Part shown: positions 11,461 through 20,653 of the stretch, one piece after another
Numbering within the stretch: the first letter of the stretch is position 1
How the letters are laid out: the number at the start of each line of letters is the position of its first letter
DNA from: a virus
IMG/VR virus record: IMGVR_UViG_3300028920_000235
Location: 1 to 26,730 of that record
DNA length: 26,730 nucleotides
Reading direction: 5' to 3' (one strand)
Program-made: the position numbers and the translations under genes
The notes under the pieces: model-generated
What the model saw: the letters and a program-made list of their open reading frames with translations, nothing else
Told to the model about the DNA's origin: nothing
The model's database searches: none

Positions 11461-11676
11461 ATGGAATTAGAAAAATTTCAAGTGTATAATTTATCAGATC
11501 TTTCTGAAGGTGATAGGTTTTATTTTGCAGGATCCAAATGGAATATATGTGATTTTATAACTACAAACAAAGGAAGATTTGAAAGTGAAAATCAATATTC
11601 CTGGAAAAATAGCAATAATAAAGAATATAAATCATCAAAAAACAGACAAGTTGTTTTTTTAAGACATTCTGAATGA
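11461..11676 (+). CDS. Hypothetical protein, 71 aa
   Basis: It starts 6 bases after the SMC-like gene and its TGA (11674-11676) overlaps the helicase ATG at 11673. The sequence looks like a small beta-rich domain (SEGDRFYFAGSKWNICDFIT) with a polar, Lys/Asn/Ser-rich end. The pattern 'G[DQ]..YF.G....' is also seen in the protein at 14591-14971 (KEGQKIYFLGEDLPFKV), so they may share a small SH3-like fold. Function unknown. Confidence 0.6.
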   Translation: MELEKFQVYNLSDLSEGDRFYFAGSKWNICDFITTNKGRFESENQYSWKNSNNKEYKSSKNRQVVFLRHSE

Positions 11677-13276
11677 TAAGTTTAAGATATTACCAAGAAT
11701 CAGTTATAAAATCAATAAAACAAAAATTCACTGCCAGTTTGATGCATCTTTTAGTTTGTGCGCCAACTGGCAGTGGTTAGGTAAAACAATAATTTTTACT
11801 TTTTTATCAAAATTAGTTGCAGCAAAGAAGAAAAAAATTCTTATTTTAACGGATCGTGCAGAATTACTTCTTCAGGCCGGTGGATCTTTAAAGAAAGTTG
11901 GATTAAATGCATTTTATATTCAGGCAGGATGCAAAAGCGTTTCAAATGCTTTCAATGTTTATATTGCAATGTCACAAACATTAAGAAGAAGAATTGATTC
12001 TGAATATTGGATTAAATTTTTGTTTAATATTGATTTATTTATTGTTGATGAAGCTCATAAACAAGAATTTAATTATCTTTTTGAAAGTGGATTGCTGAAT
12101 GGTAAACATGTAATTGGATTCACTGCAACTTGCAAAAGGTCCGGAAAAATGCGACAATTAGCACTTGATTATGAAGAAATAATTGAAAGCATTTCCATAC
12201 AAGATTTAATTGAACAAGGATATCTTGTCAATGATGATTACTTTGGACCATCATGTCCAAATTTGGATGGTGTTGAAATTGACAGAATGAAAGGTGATTA
12301 TAAAGAAAACCAAATGTTCCAAAGATTTAACAATCCAAAATTATATGCAGGTGTTGTTAAAAATTACAATGAAATTGCACCAAATACAAAAGCTTTAGTT
12401 TTTTGCGTAAATATTGAACACTGCATTAAAACAGCAATTGAATTTAATAGTCATGGAATTAGCGCAAAATTTATTGTAAGTAATGTTTCAAAGCCAAAAT
12501 TACCTTCTGACATTAATGATGCAGGTAAAATGGCCAGATATGAAGAAAGGAAGCGTATCTTTGATTTATATCAACACTATCACAGTTTGCATTCAGGTGA
12601 CAGAGAAAGTGTCTTTAATGGCCATAAAAATGGCAAATTCCAGGTGCTTATAAATGCAGGAATTGCAACAACTGGATATGATGATCCAACAATTGAAACA
12701 ATTATACTAAACAGAGCAACGGCATCAACAACCTTATTGTTGCAAATGTTAGGACGTGGATCAAGGCCATCACCAGGAAAAACCCATTTTAATATTTTGG
12801 ATTTTGGTGGAAATTGTGAAAGATTAGGATATTATTCAGAAAACAGGCTTTGGTCATTATGGCATGAAGCAACAGAAGGTGATGGATTGCCACCAATTAA
12901 AGAATGTGGATATGATTCAGAAGGAACACCTATTTTGACAAATGGAAAGAAAGGTTGCAGAAGATTAATTTTAGCATCTTACAAAATTTGTCCTTTTTGT
13001 GGTTTTAAATATCCGGATAAAAATATTTCTGAAATAGATCTAGCTAGCATCATGTTTGATTCTTCACAAAAAAAAGCTGTCAAAGTAAAAAAGATAAAAG
13101 ACATGTCATTTGAAGAATTGCACGATTATCAGAAAGTAAAAGGACATAAACAAGCATGGTTGTGGCGACAATTATGGTATAAAGGCAGGGAAAAAGCAAT
13201 TGAAGAATTTGGAAACAAATATGGATGGAAAAAAGCAACAAAGATGAAAGCAGTTGCATTTTGTCAGAACTTTTAA
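11673..13276 (+). CDS. DEAH-box superfamily 2 helicase with interrupted P-loop (recoding candidate or lesion)
   Basis: ATG 11673 overlaps the upstream stop as ATGA. The first 35 codons give a helicase N-terminus (LRYYQESVIKSI) and the start of motif I, CAPTGSG. TAG at 11778-11780 then stops the frame. In the -1 frame the protein continues with KT completing the P-loop, then LILTDRAELLLQAGG (Ia), VDEAH (II, 12044-12058), GFTATC (III), LVFCV (IV), NAGIATTGYDDP (V), QMLGRGSRP (VI) and a CPFC half-knuckle. Hopping from GGT 11775-11777 to GGT 11780-11782 gives a 532-residue protein with an exact APTGSGKT. A plain -1 shift would give APTGSGLGKT. All other motifs are intact, so either the product is made by recoding or the lesion is very recent. 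Confidence 0.85.
11729..11782 (+). other. Candidate translational-bypass element (hairpin, GGT takeoff, TAG, GGT landing)
   Basis: The arms CACTGCCAGTT (11729-11739) and AACTGGCAGTG (11765-11775) are perfect 11-bp inverted repeats around a 25-base loop; a U-G pair can extend the stem by one. The 3' arm ends on the first base of GGT 11775-11777, which is followed by TAG 11778-11780. A second GGT (11780-11782) is in the frame of the rest of the helicase. Matched Gly codons with UAG right after the first, next to a hairpin, are features of the T4 gene 60 bypass. The geometry here (5-base step) differs, so the function is only a hypothesis. Confidence 0.45.
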
Positions 13277-17747: not shown

Positions 17748-18460
17748 TTTAAATATTTTTTAATTTGTTTTTCAGCGTTCTTTTTAAAAAATACACCCAT
17801 ATTGCTTGATGCTTTTAATCCTGCCGGACCAATAAAAGGTGCTTTTTGTAAACTGACAGATCTTCCTTTTTCATAAGAATATAATGGATCAGCTTTAATA
17901 AATAAATTACTATTTCCTTGTTTTTTTATAGTCCTTATATGCAAAAGTACATTTTCAAACAATACAAATCCATTTTTTCCGGCCTTAAATGCAGCTTTTA
18001 TAAATCCCTGATCTTTAAAAATTGGTTTTCTTCCTTTATTTTTGCTTTTTATGTTTTTTAAATAAAACCTTTTTGAAACTAATTTTGATTGACTTTTTGA
18101 AACTCTGGATGGATTCATTGGAATAAAATCACGATTTTTAACTGTTCCACCAAATTCCTGTTTGTTAAGTTCATCACCTGCATTTGATTTCCCTTTAATA
18201 ACACCCATTTCTGACTGCATTTGATTAATATTAAAAGTATTTGAAACCTTATTTACAGATGTGTGTGACCTTATAAATGATTTTTTTCTTGTTGTAAATT
18301 TTGATGCAAATGTTTTTTCAACATGCTTTTGTTTTGCTTCAAATGCAGCATCATTTAATGTTGCACGAACCGCAACTGGCAATGCAGACTTGTGAACTTT
18401 TTCAAGTTTATTTGCAAGCTTTACAGCTTCATCTGTATTGACATCAAATGCATGTTTCAT
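17744..18460 (-). CDS. Tail completion/minor tail protein Z-like, 238 aa
   Basis: The N-terminal helices (KLANKLEKVHKSALPVAVRA, TLNDAAFEAKQKHVEKTF) match the pattern of minor tail protein Z and HK97 gp10-like tail proteins, in which helix residues AxRxxLNxxAxxxxxxxx are conserved. It is basic throughout and Lys-rich. Its start overlaps the preceding stop by one base (TAATG) and its end overlaps the gp43-like gene by 4 bases. The assignment rests on the first 60 residues only and is moderate. Confidence 0.55.
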   Translation of the reverse strand: MKHAFDVNTDEAVKLANKLEKVHKSALPVAVRATLNDAAFEAKQKHVEKTFASKFTTRKKSFIRSHTSVNKVSNTFNINQMQSEMGVIKGKSNAGDELNKQEFGGTVKNRDFIPMNPSRVSKSQSKLVSKRFYLKNIKSKNKGRKPIFKDQGFIKAAFKAGKNGFVLFENVLLHIRTIKKQGNSNLFIKADPLYSYEKGRSVSLQKAPFIGPAGLKASSNMGVFFKKNAEKQIKKYLK

Positions 18461-19095
18461 TAATTTCCTGTTCCATAAACTATATAAAAACCTAATGAAT
18501 CAATGGAAGGATTTGACAAAGCGTTTGCAGGCAAAGCATCTGGTGATGGTTGGAAATAAAATTTATTATAAAGGCCACCACTTCTGAAATAAATTTTATG
18601 TTCTTTTACCGTGGTTCCATTTACTGAAAAAGCATCCCAATACACTAAATTTATATCATTACCATCTGCCATTGATGGAACATATCCTGTTGGTGGATCC
18701 CATAATTCCAAAACAGATCCGATTAATGCACCTGCTGTATTTGGTAATTTATTGCACCATAAATGAACATTTCCTGCATTATCCTTAAAATATCTAAGTT
18801 TTGATTCAACATTTGTTGTATCATCCCATCCCTGTCCTGATATCAAAGTTGCATCAATCCAATCTTCCTGTATTTGAAGTGTCTTTTTTAATGCTTCAAT
18901 TAACTGATATCCATTTGCTTCATTATCTTCATTCCCATTAGGTGTTAATCCGGCTAAATTCATTAATTTTTGAAAAAATTGAATTGGATCCTGATTGACA
19001 CCTTCACCAACTAATGTTTCATGGTCTTTTATTTTGCCATTTAAAAAATCAGCATCTGAATTATCAATTCCTTGTTGTAAACTTAAATCTTTCAT
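18460..19095 (-). CDS. Probable tail fibre/receptor-binding protein, 211 aa
   Basis: It follows the gp48-like gene, where Mu-like phages carry their fibre genes. The N-terminus is helical (SLQQGIDNSDADFLNGKIKD), leading to a Gln/Leu-rich segment (YQLIEALKKTLQIQEDWI). The C-terminal 120 residues are aromatic and beta-rich (VHLWCNKLPN, IYFRSGGLYNKFYFQ), suited to a trimeric tip. I prefer ATG 19095, just after the preceding stop at 19100, over an upstream TTG at 19113. The fibre assignment is mainly contextual. Confidence 0.55.
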   Translation of the reverse strand: MKDLSLQQGIDNSDADFLNGKIKDHETLVGEGVNQDPIQFFQKLMNLAGLTPNGNEDNEANGYQLIEALKKTLQIQEDWIDATLISGQGWDDTTNVESKLRYFKDNAGNVHLWCNKLPNTAGALIGSVLELWDPPTGYVPSMADGNDINLVYWDAFSVNGTTVKEHKIYFRSGGLYNKFYFQPSPDALPANALSNPSIDSLGFYIVYGTGN

Positions 19096-19099
19096 AATA

Positions 19100-20653
19100 T
19101 TATATATAATCAATTAGTAAAAATCCGGCTGTTTGCACAGGTTTAATGTTTAACATTAAAAGCCTGAATTCATTCTTTCTTTCTTCATCTACATTTGCCC
19201 TTGTTCCAAAAACTTCACCACCAATAAAAAATGTGAATCTTAAATTTATATTATCCCCAAAATTAAATGATTCATCTTTTAATTCATCAACATAATTTGC
19301 AATTTTAGTGTATTCCAAAGCATCCGGATTATCATAAACACTAGCACCATAATAAATATCACCATACAAAGATGCAATTGGATTGTAAACTTCATAATTT
19401 CCACCACCTGCATCAAATCTATTTTCATGAACATAAACATCAAATCCTGCTGACCTCAATTGGCCCTGTAAATATAAATAATGTTGTCTTGCAGGAATAT
19501 CACCTGGATGTTGCATTTTTCTTAAAATTGACGCTTTTCTTTCTTCTAAAGTTAAATTTGTATTTATATACAATCCCAATGCACGTTCCCAATTAAATGC
19601 ATCTTCTTCAGTAAAATCATTATTATCTGGCAATATACTGCTTAAAATATCAACATTTGCTTTCAATGCTCTGCTTTCTGACAATGATAAACCTTCATGG
19701 AATTTTGAAAAAATATTTTGATAATTTAACCACCATGCACGACCTGTTGGATATAATTGTTTTGACAATTTAACTAATTGATCTTTAAATATTAAAGTAT
19801 TATAAGTGACTGTAATATCTGAAATTTTTATTCTGTGATTTCCTGAATCAACAATTATTAATGTTTCATCATGACAAAATCCCATTAATGGAAAATAAAA
19901 TTCATCATCACCAGATCCAACAGTTCCATATGAATCAATAAAATTACTACTTCCATTAAAAAATAATATTTTTTGATCCTGTCTATCCACAACAGCAAAA
20001 ACACCATCTTCATCAATAATATTTATTATTCCTGTTGGATAATTAAAAACAGTATCTGAAACCTTAACAATAAAAAATCCAGTTAAATTAAATGTTTTTA
20101 CATCTTCATTTCCAGAATCTGCAATAATAAGATTATTATTTACAACTGCAATTCCTTCTGGAAATTTAAATTGATGATCACTAGATCCATAACTTCCAAA
20201 TTCAAATAAAAATGTTCCTGCAATTGTGTGTGTTTTTATTCTATGATTTTGCTTATCTACAATATAAAGATTATTGTTATTATAAGTAATTCCAACAGGA
20301 TATTTAAAATTTGAATTTCCTGTTCCTTCAGATCCAAATTCAGATAAAAATGTTCCATTAACTTGATGTTTTTTTATTCTGTGATTTGCTGAATCTGTTA
20401 TATATAAATCAGTTCCATCATTAGTAATGCATTCCGGAAATAAAAAATTATCATTTCCGGATCCATTTGTTCCAAATTTACGCAAATAAACACCATCTAA
20501 ATCAAAAACCTGAATTCTATGATTCTGCTTATCTACAATAAAAATTTCATTATTTAAAACCGTTATTCCTGAAGGGAAAGAAAATTGACCATCACCTGAT
20601 CCATTTGAACCAAAAGAACTATTATATAAAACATCAACAGAAAAATCAGCCAT
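19100..20653 (-). CDS. NHL six-repeat propeller fused to Mu gp48/YmfQ-like baseplate protein, 517 aa
   Basis: Residues 12-286 hold six NHL repeats, each of the form FGS.G.G...F.(F/Y)P.GI......(L/I)YI.D..NHRI..., which should close as one six-bladed beta-propeller. From about residue 288 the sequence is a Mu gp48/YmfQ-type tail protein: LSKQLYPTGRAWW, a helical part, then DAFNWERALGLYIN, matching the WExxLGL motif of that family. Homologues are short baseplate proteins that link to the fibres. The propeller is an extra domain at the N-terminus; it could bind a cell-surface glycan or protein, or stabilise the fibre hub. No stop or frameshift separates the two parts, so the fusion looks real. 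Confidence 0.85.
   Translation of the reverse strand: MADFSVDVLYNSSFGSNGSGDGQFSFPSGITVLNNEIFIVDKQNHRIQVFDLDGVYLRKFGTNGSGNDNFLFPECITNDGTDLYITDSANHRIKKHQVNGTFLSEFGSEGTGNSNFKYPVGITYNNNNLYIVDKQNHRIKTHTIAGTFLFEFGSYGSSDHQFKFPEGIAVVNNNLIIADSGNEDVKTFNLTGFFIVKVSDTVFNYPTGIINIIDEDGVFAVVDRQDQKILFFNGSSNFIDSYGTVGSGDDEFYFPLMGFCHDETLIIVDSGNHRIKISDITVTYNTLIFKDQLVKLSKQLYPTGRAWWLNYQNIFSKFHEGLSLSESRALKANVDILSSILPDNNDFTEEDAFNWERALGLYINTNLTLEERKASILRKMQHPGDIPARQHYLYLQGQLRSAGFDVYVHENRFDAGGGNYEVYNPIASLYGDIYYGASVYDNPDALEYTKIANYVDELKDESFNFGDNINLRFTFFIGGEVFGTRANVDEERKNEFRLLMLNIKPVQTAGFLLIDYI

Follow-up and report, generated by a model that had tools for sequence, protein, structure and literature searches.

A candidate short translational bypass in the P-loop of phage DEAH-type helicase genes, recurrent across lineages

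Background

To our knowledge, efficient translational bypassing was previously known, among phages, essentially only from gene 60 of T4, and otherwise from yeast mitochondria. Bypassing in T4 gene 60 involves a 5' stem-loop, whose refolding has been proposed to help move the mRNA forward, together with a stop codon in the A site; the insert itself has been proposed to protect against the neighboring homing endonuclease mobA (PMC5009743, PMC11194080, PMC3014915). Shorter natural counterparts have long been presumed, according to a 2016 review (PMC5009743). The byps of Magnusiomyces capitatus are many short inserts that are skipped in translation, often with a partly matched landing codon; they occur in mitochondria, where they are spread through most genes, and have been described as independent of context (PMC5009743). 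In synthetic E. coli stop-hops, peptidyl-tRNA crosses a stop codon and lands on a matching codon close by (PMC5009743).

The locus described here lies in a 26,730-base IMG/VR virus record, the whole of which is referred to below as the window. It shares four features with T4 gene 60: disjoint conserved open reading frames, an immediate stop, a matched landing codon, and a 5' stem-loop. The gap, however, is 50 nt in T4 gene 60 and 5-8 nt in the helicases, and the 3' arm of the helicase stem reaches the take-off codon, unlike that of gene 60. T4 gene 60 has a stem-loop at or after the stop and a KKYK nascent peptide; neither such a take-off stem-loop, which is perhaps needless for a very short gap, nor a KKYK-like nascent peptide was identified in the interrupted helicase genes, and both absences count against bypassing. 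The host gene also differs, being interrupted at the P-loop of a DEAH-type helicase in many independent lineages, whereas gene 60 is known from one phage. The lack of a take-off stem-loop places the window as a variant of programmed bypassing rather than a homologue of gene 60. The helicase inserts are like the byps in being short and skipped, but they occupy a single P-loop site, follow a strong 5' stem-loop, and belong to phages of bacteria. Synthetic stop-hops were test constructs, whereas a helicase hop would be natural, recurrent, and tied to an RNA structure that is conserved. Among open-licence papers, literature searches returned no previous description of bypassing in a helicase gene.

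An interrupted helicase gene in the window

Tail genes are encoded on one strand of the window and replication genes on the other. With the window helicase as the query, the closest helicase among annotated phages was that of Cellulophaga phage phiSM. The helicase reading frame is broken within the ATP-binding site (P-loop) by five extra bases, the first three of which are a stop codon; positions 11760-11792 read GCGCCAACTGGCAGTGGTTAGGTAAAACAATAA. ORF1 (11673..11777, + strand, as are all features below) has 35 codons and runs from the N-terminal Q-motif region to ...APTGSG, the first part of the Walker A motif, a region whose counterpart in intact homologues aligns at the equivalent position. 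Its translation from the ATG at 11673 is MISLRYYQESVIKSIKQKFTASLMHLLVCAPTGSG, followed by TAG at 11778-11780. The proposed take-off codon is the GGT (Gly) at 11775..11777, the insert that would be bypassed is TAGGT at 11778..11782, and the proposed landing codon is the second GGT, at 11780..11782.

The remainder of the helicase, in another frame, is open from the GGT at 11780 to the stop at 13274-13276. ORF2 (11783..13276), which would restart at AAA, the Lys codon of GKT, has 497 codons and carries all of the helicase domains (ResIII and Helicase_C, with a match to the phrog_16 DNA helicase); its dN/dS was about 0.10 against the intact homologue L018. The original prediction, that the helicase reads ...APTGSG-TAG with a second GGT in the frame of the rest of the protein, was confirmed by sequence and translation (11775-11782), and its view that the open downstream remainder is a helicase also held. 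As it had further proposed, excision of the five bases gives exactly APTGSGKT, the canonical P-loop, with the spacing seen in intact homologues. No other frame breaks were found among the window genes that could be aligned to relatives. At 12122-12133 the window encodes TATC in place of TATP, a helicase motif that is nearly invariant across the family.

Recurrence of the interruption in other phages

All 12 of the first homologues lacked the insert and read PTGSGKT, PTGAGKT, or similar. A wider family search, in which a stop after the glycine codon was not required, yielded 42 viral loci and one genome contig (43 unselected homologues); the insert was missing from 40 of the 42 viral homologues and from the Chlorobiota homologue. 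Frame breaks were found in three of the 43. Two of these, L039 and L049, were at the same codon boundary as in the window, reading GGC-TGAGAGC-AAG (7 nt) and GGC-TGAGC-AAA (5 nt), respectively, and the only other one, in L055, was elsewhere in the gene; such a coincidence of position exceeds what chance would give. L055 and Streptococcus phage Javan170 (L181) were set aside as plain frameshifts at other gene positions.

Pattern scans, which did require a stop after the glycine, identified further interrupted helicases: L061/L065, L064, L068 (Nonlabens phage P12024L), L087/L089, L090, L119, L141, L150, L161, L163, L164, and the family L073/L095/L096/L105. In total, no fewer than 13 phage helicase lineages besides that of the window share the interruption, represented by 17 distinct sequences; with the window, there are 14 lineages and 18 distinct interrupted sequences, and the carriers include two sequenced isolates, the Nonlabens phages P12024S and P12024L. 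The anatomy is simple: a glycine codon, a stop at once, a gap of 5, 6, 7, or 8 nt, and then Lys-Thr in any frame. In a helicase tree, 12 interrupted genes required 11 changes, at least seven of them forced by well-supported branches. The pattern for the window's own site matched no further record, and a scan of 395 genomes of the phylum of the Chlorobiota metagenome-assembled genome gave zero true TRRGY cases. Most of L071-L137 and L138-L177, as well as L062, L063, L066, L184, and L185, were discarded as chance pattern matches without open helicase frames.

Alignment of homologues, which had been put forward originally as a check on whether the insert is conserved, thus gave a divided answer: the closest relatives are intact, and lineages farther away share the interruption. 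The original prediction had also named intact homologues, with no relative sharing the insert, as an outcome that would speak against it; this is true of the closest relatives and fails in the wider search. The window helicase has no relative closer than 68% identity, which counts against bypassing. The intact P-loops of these nearest relatives would fit a sequencing or assembly error in the window, but such an error is extremely unlikely, given that TAGGT is found at the same codon in independent metagenomes (L061/L065 and L087/L089) and in two cultured isolates, and that the window has a matching 12-bp hairpin missing from the intact L018-L021.

A stem-loop upstream of the take-off codon

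In the window, this predicted hairpin spans 11728-11776, where 11728-11739 pairs with 11765-11776 in a 12-bp helix (-23.4 kcal/mol, z -4.1) that ends on the take-off codon. The 5' arm (11728..11739) is TCACTGCCAGTT and the 3' arm (11765..11776), with its end inside the take-off codon, is AACTGGCAGTGG; an upper helix (11743-11747 with 11758-11762) and the apical loop are predicted between them (11743..11762). The hairpin, like the recurrence and the link to homing endonucleases considered below, goes beyond what was originally proposed.

An RNA helix precedes the insert in each of the 18 distinct interrupted genes, and its 3' arm stops 0-4 nt short of where the take-off codon ends. The mean folding z for the 75 nt before the insert was -4.1, compared to -0.8 in 40 intact homologues (p=1e-7), and averaged -0.3 in ten further intact genes from other families. 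Helices reaching into the last 15 nt had a median of -21.1 kcal/mol in interrupted genes (n=18) and -7.8 kcal/mol in intact ones (n=50; p=3e-9). Intact homologues mostly lack the 5' helix, as do L018-L021, the neighbors of the window. On the 3' side of the insert there was no surplus structure (mean z 0.08). None of the scans selected sequences for their capacity to form a helix upstream, and the comparison therefore does not depend on the way in which the cases were detected. In two subfamilies, 93% and 81% of the pairs were maintained, versus 25-56% for slid partners; there were a few compensatory changes, and covariation taken alone is weak with 5-6 sequences.

One intact gene from the window's clade, L022 (IMGVR_UViG_3300020045_010010), has a perfect 10-bp helix near the P-loop glycine (L022:1429-1503, -18.3 kcal/mol) and is possibly a gene that lost its insert; intact L180 (-13.1 kcal/mol) may be a similar case. 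A hairpin without an insert, as in L022, requires either reversion or a hairpin that was there beforehand, and this counts against bypassing.

Insert, stop codon, and landing triplet

The 5-nt inserts are TAGGT, TAGGC, TAGGG, TGAGC, and TGAGT, and the longer ones are TAAGGA (6 nt), TGAGAGC (7 nt), and TAAATGGA, TGACAGGA, and TAACCGAT (8 nt). A GGN codon occupies the take-off position in every interrupted homologue, and all three kinds of stop (TAG, TGA, and TAA) were seen directly after it. L073, L095, L096, and L105 are phage contigs that decode TGA as tryptophan; in them TGA occurs at conserved Trp positions of the helicase, and the stop at the P-loop is TAG.

The final triplet of each insert would keep two or more of its three base pairs with the tRNA-Gly that reads the take-off codon, and in the window this triplet is an identical GGU. 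The scans for TAGGY and TGAGY imposed part of the landing triplet, and their re-pairing statistics were excluded as evidence; the triplet is unbiased only in the window, L039, L049, and the cases from some scans. One scan placed no constraint on the remainder of the insert, and there the insert ended in GGN in five of the eight true cases. Four lineages have the non-Gly landing triplets AGC, AGT, and GAT, which counts against bypassing.

The range of gaps also bears on whether the ribosome could pass the insert by programmed frameshifting or stop readthrough, which would leave two or three extra residues in the P-loop (GSG-LG-KT in the window). A stop in the A site with upstream structure is also typical of +1 frameshifting, -1 slippage fits a 5-nt insert, and readthrough fits the 6-nt insert of L163. 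However, since the gaps are 5, 6, 7, and 8 nt, with every frame relation, neither one type of frameshift nor readthrough explains the cases: -1, +1, and in-frame readthrough would all be demanded at one codon, and no slippery sequence is common to them. Walker A would be lengthened in each product, whereas intact homologues keep its exact spacing, and the Gly-like landing triplet would be left without explanation. Frameshifting or readthrough is therefore quite unlikely. Four gap lengths need three frame relations, and therefore only skipping would restore GKT throughout. A 5-base bypass with matched glycine codons and a stop directly after take-off, as first suggested from the window sequence, appears to be the best fit to all of the comparative data.

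Conservation and selection

GGN-TAGGT-AAR was kept in all five of L073, L095, L096, L105, and L090, at 46-82% protein identity. The dN/dS values in this group were 0.13-0.45 downstream of the insert and low upstream as well, which indicates, at the level of sequence comparison, that both halves of the helicase are under purifying selection. The ORF1 peptides, about 30-50 aa long, share only Q-motif and P-loop sequence, which is present in intact genes too.

P12024S and P12024L kept the insert through 41 substitutions (dN 0.016, dS 0.093), with 25 synonymous and 16 non-synonymous changes downstream. The helicases annotated in GenBank for these phages (P12024S, 18319-19629, JQ823122; P12024L, 19138-20448, JQ823123) start after the P-loop and are probably misannotated owing to the insert. 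Taken at face value, this start, at an ATG just past KTV, would favor two separate genes, with termination after 35 codons and downstream re-initiation producing a helicase that is truncated at its N terminus and lacks the P-loop glycine, and the Shine-Dalgarno-like TAAGGA within the L163 insert would fit as well. Yet in most cases (the window, L061, L064, L090, and the L073 family) no ATG lies close to where the frame resumes, an SF2 helicase minus its Walker A motif should be inactive, and purifying selection on the N-terminal part would have no explanation; re-initiation is thus very unlikely indeed.

Proposed mechanism

Programmed translational bypassing of the T4 gene 60 kind, over a gap of 5-8 nt, is considered the probable route of helicase expression, with a probability of roughly 85% on the sequence comparisons above. 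In the window, the ribosome would read 35 codons to the P-loop glycine codon GGT and stall with UAG in the A site. The peptidyl-tRNA-Gly would then detach from the take-off codon, and the upstream stem-loop (11728-11776) would refold, favoring forward movement of the mRNA. With GGN in the P site, the 3' arm of the stem-loop would be inside the ribosome, and for this reason refolding would push the mRNA forward. The tRNA would re-pair with the glycine codon GGU 5 nt downstream, and translation would restart at AAA to give a helicase with an intact APTGSGKT. In P12024S and P12024L, the fusion product would span CAPTGAGKTVMF. We infer the ribosome hop, the hairpin as its driver, and the efficiency of the hop.

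A possible origin in immunity to homing endonucleases

A gene for a free-standing, homing-type endonuclease abuts the start of the helicase in five of the 14 lineages. The adjoining gene is NUMOD4-HNH in L067, HNH in L150, HNH (phrog_374) in L141 and L164, and GIY-YIG in L163; in annotated intact relatives of L141, L150, and L164, the spacing from the upstream gene to the helicase is 0-13 nt. Among intact controls, one of 30 upstream genes was an endonuclease (Fisher p about 0.007, with controls imperfectly matched by family). This one, L060, is from the Chlorobiota metagenome-assembled genome, where a NUMOD4-HNH-like gene (L060:866-1408) lies directly 5' of an intact helicase P-loop. In the other nine lineages, the window among them, the helicase has no endonuclease gene beside it; this and the L060 exception count against an endonuclease origin. 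An HNH/endonuclease VII-like gene (phrog_3322) is found at 1601-1960 of the window, about 10 kb upstream of the helicase.

The P-loop site is also one at which introns and inteins with homing endonucleases are inserted, between the Gly and Lys codons. In a faecal phage homologue, L183 (MT835492.1), an intron-like insertion of roughly 1.2 kb (L183:714-1917) sits exactly between GGT and AAA; it holds a LAGLIDADG gene, and, as in a group I intron, T is the last base of the 5' exon and G that of the insertion. Unlike such elements, the 5-8 nt inserts are too small for self-splicing and encode nothing. By Rfam search, neither the window nor the P-loop of L183 contained a group I intron; the sole Rfam match was a group I intron (RF00028, 86.9 bits) at L105:9641-9952 (- strand). 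The helicase frame on the L105 contig also ends early after AAETG, and the P-loop insert is present there as well.

An intron insertion point in one homologue and adjoining homing-type endonuclease genes in five lineages could also mark the inserts as inactivation scars, left where a homing site underwent intron loss or repair of a double-strand break, in helicases that are now dead pseudogenes. Scars are very unlikely, however, because the insert is deeply conserved under purifying selection, the downstream frames are open for 300-528 codons, and an immediate in-frame stop is present in every case, TGA-recoding phages included; nor would a strong hairpin be expected in 18 of 18.

For genes expressed by bypassing, the comparative analysis points, with slightly better than even odds, to an insert that destroys the target of a homing endonuclease recognizing P-loop DNA, is made tolerable by bypassing, and forms, in some phages, part of an endonuclease-linked cassette, in parallel with the proposal made for mobA and the insert of T4 gene 60. 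Because no such gene adjoins the window helicase, the origin proposed for the window comes from its relatives. Immunity to endonucleases as the origin is less certain than bypassing itself.

Conclusions

The 18 candidate sequences from 14 lineages, two cultured phages among them, have a simple common anatomy, which makes the roles of the 5' stem-loop, the stop codon, and the landing codon directly testable by comparison, as is the suggested connection of homing endonucleases with bypassing. Gene callers truncate helicases that carry a P-loop insert. It seems marginally the better supposition that a widespread miniature class of bypass (5-8 nt, with a 5' stem-loop, from Gly to Gly) arose repeatedly in the P-loops of phage helicases as cassette-borne immunity to homing endonucleases aimed at this conserved sequence. 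If this is true, T4 gene 60 would be one large example of a general anti-endonuclease strategy.
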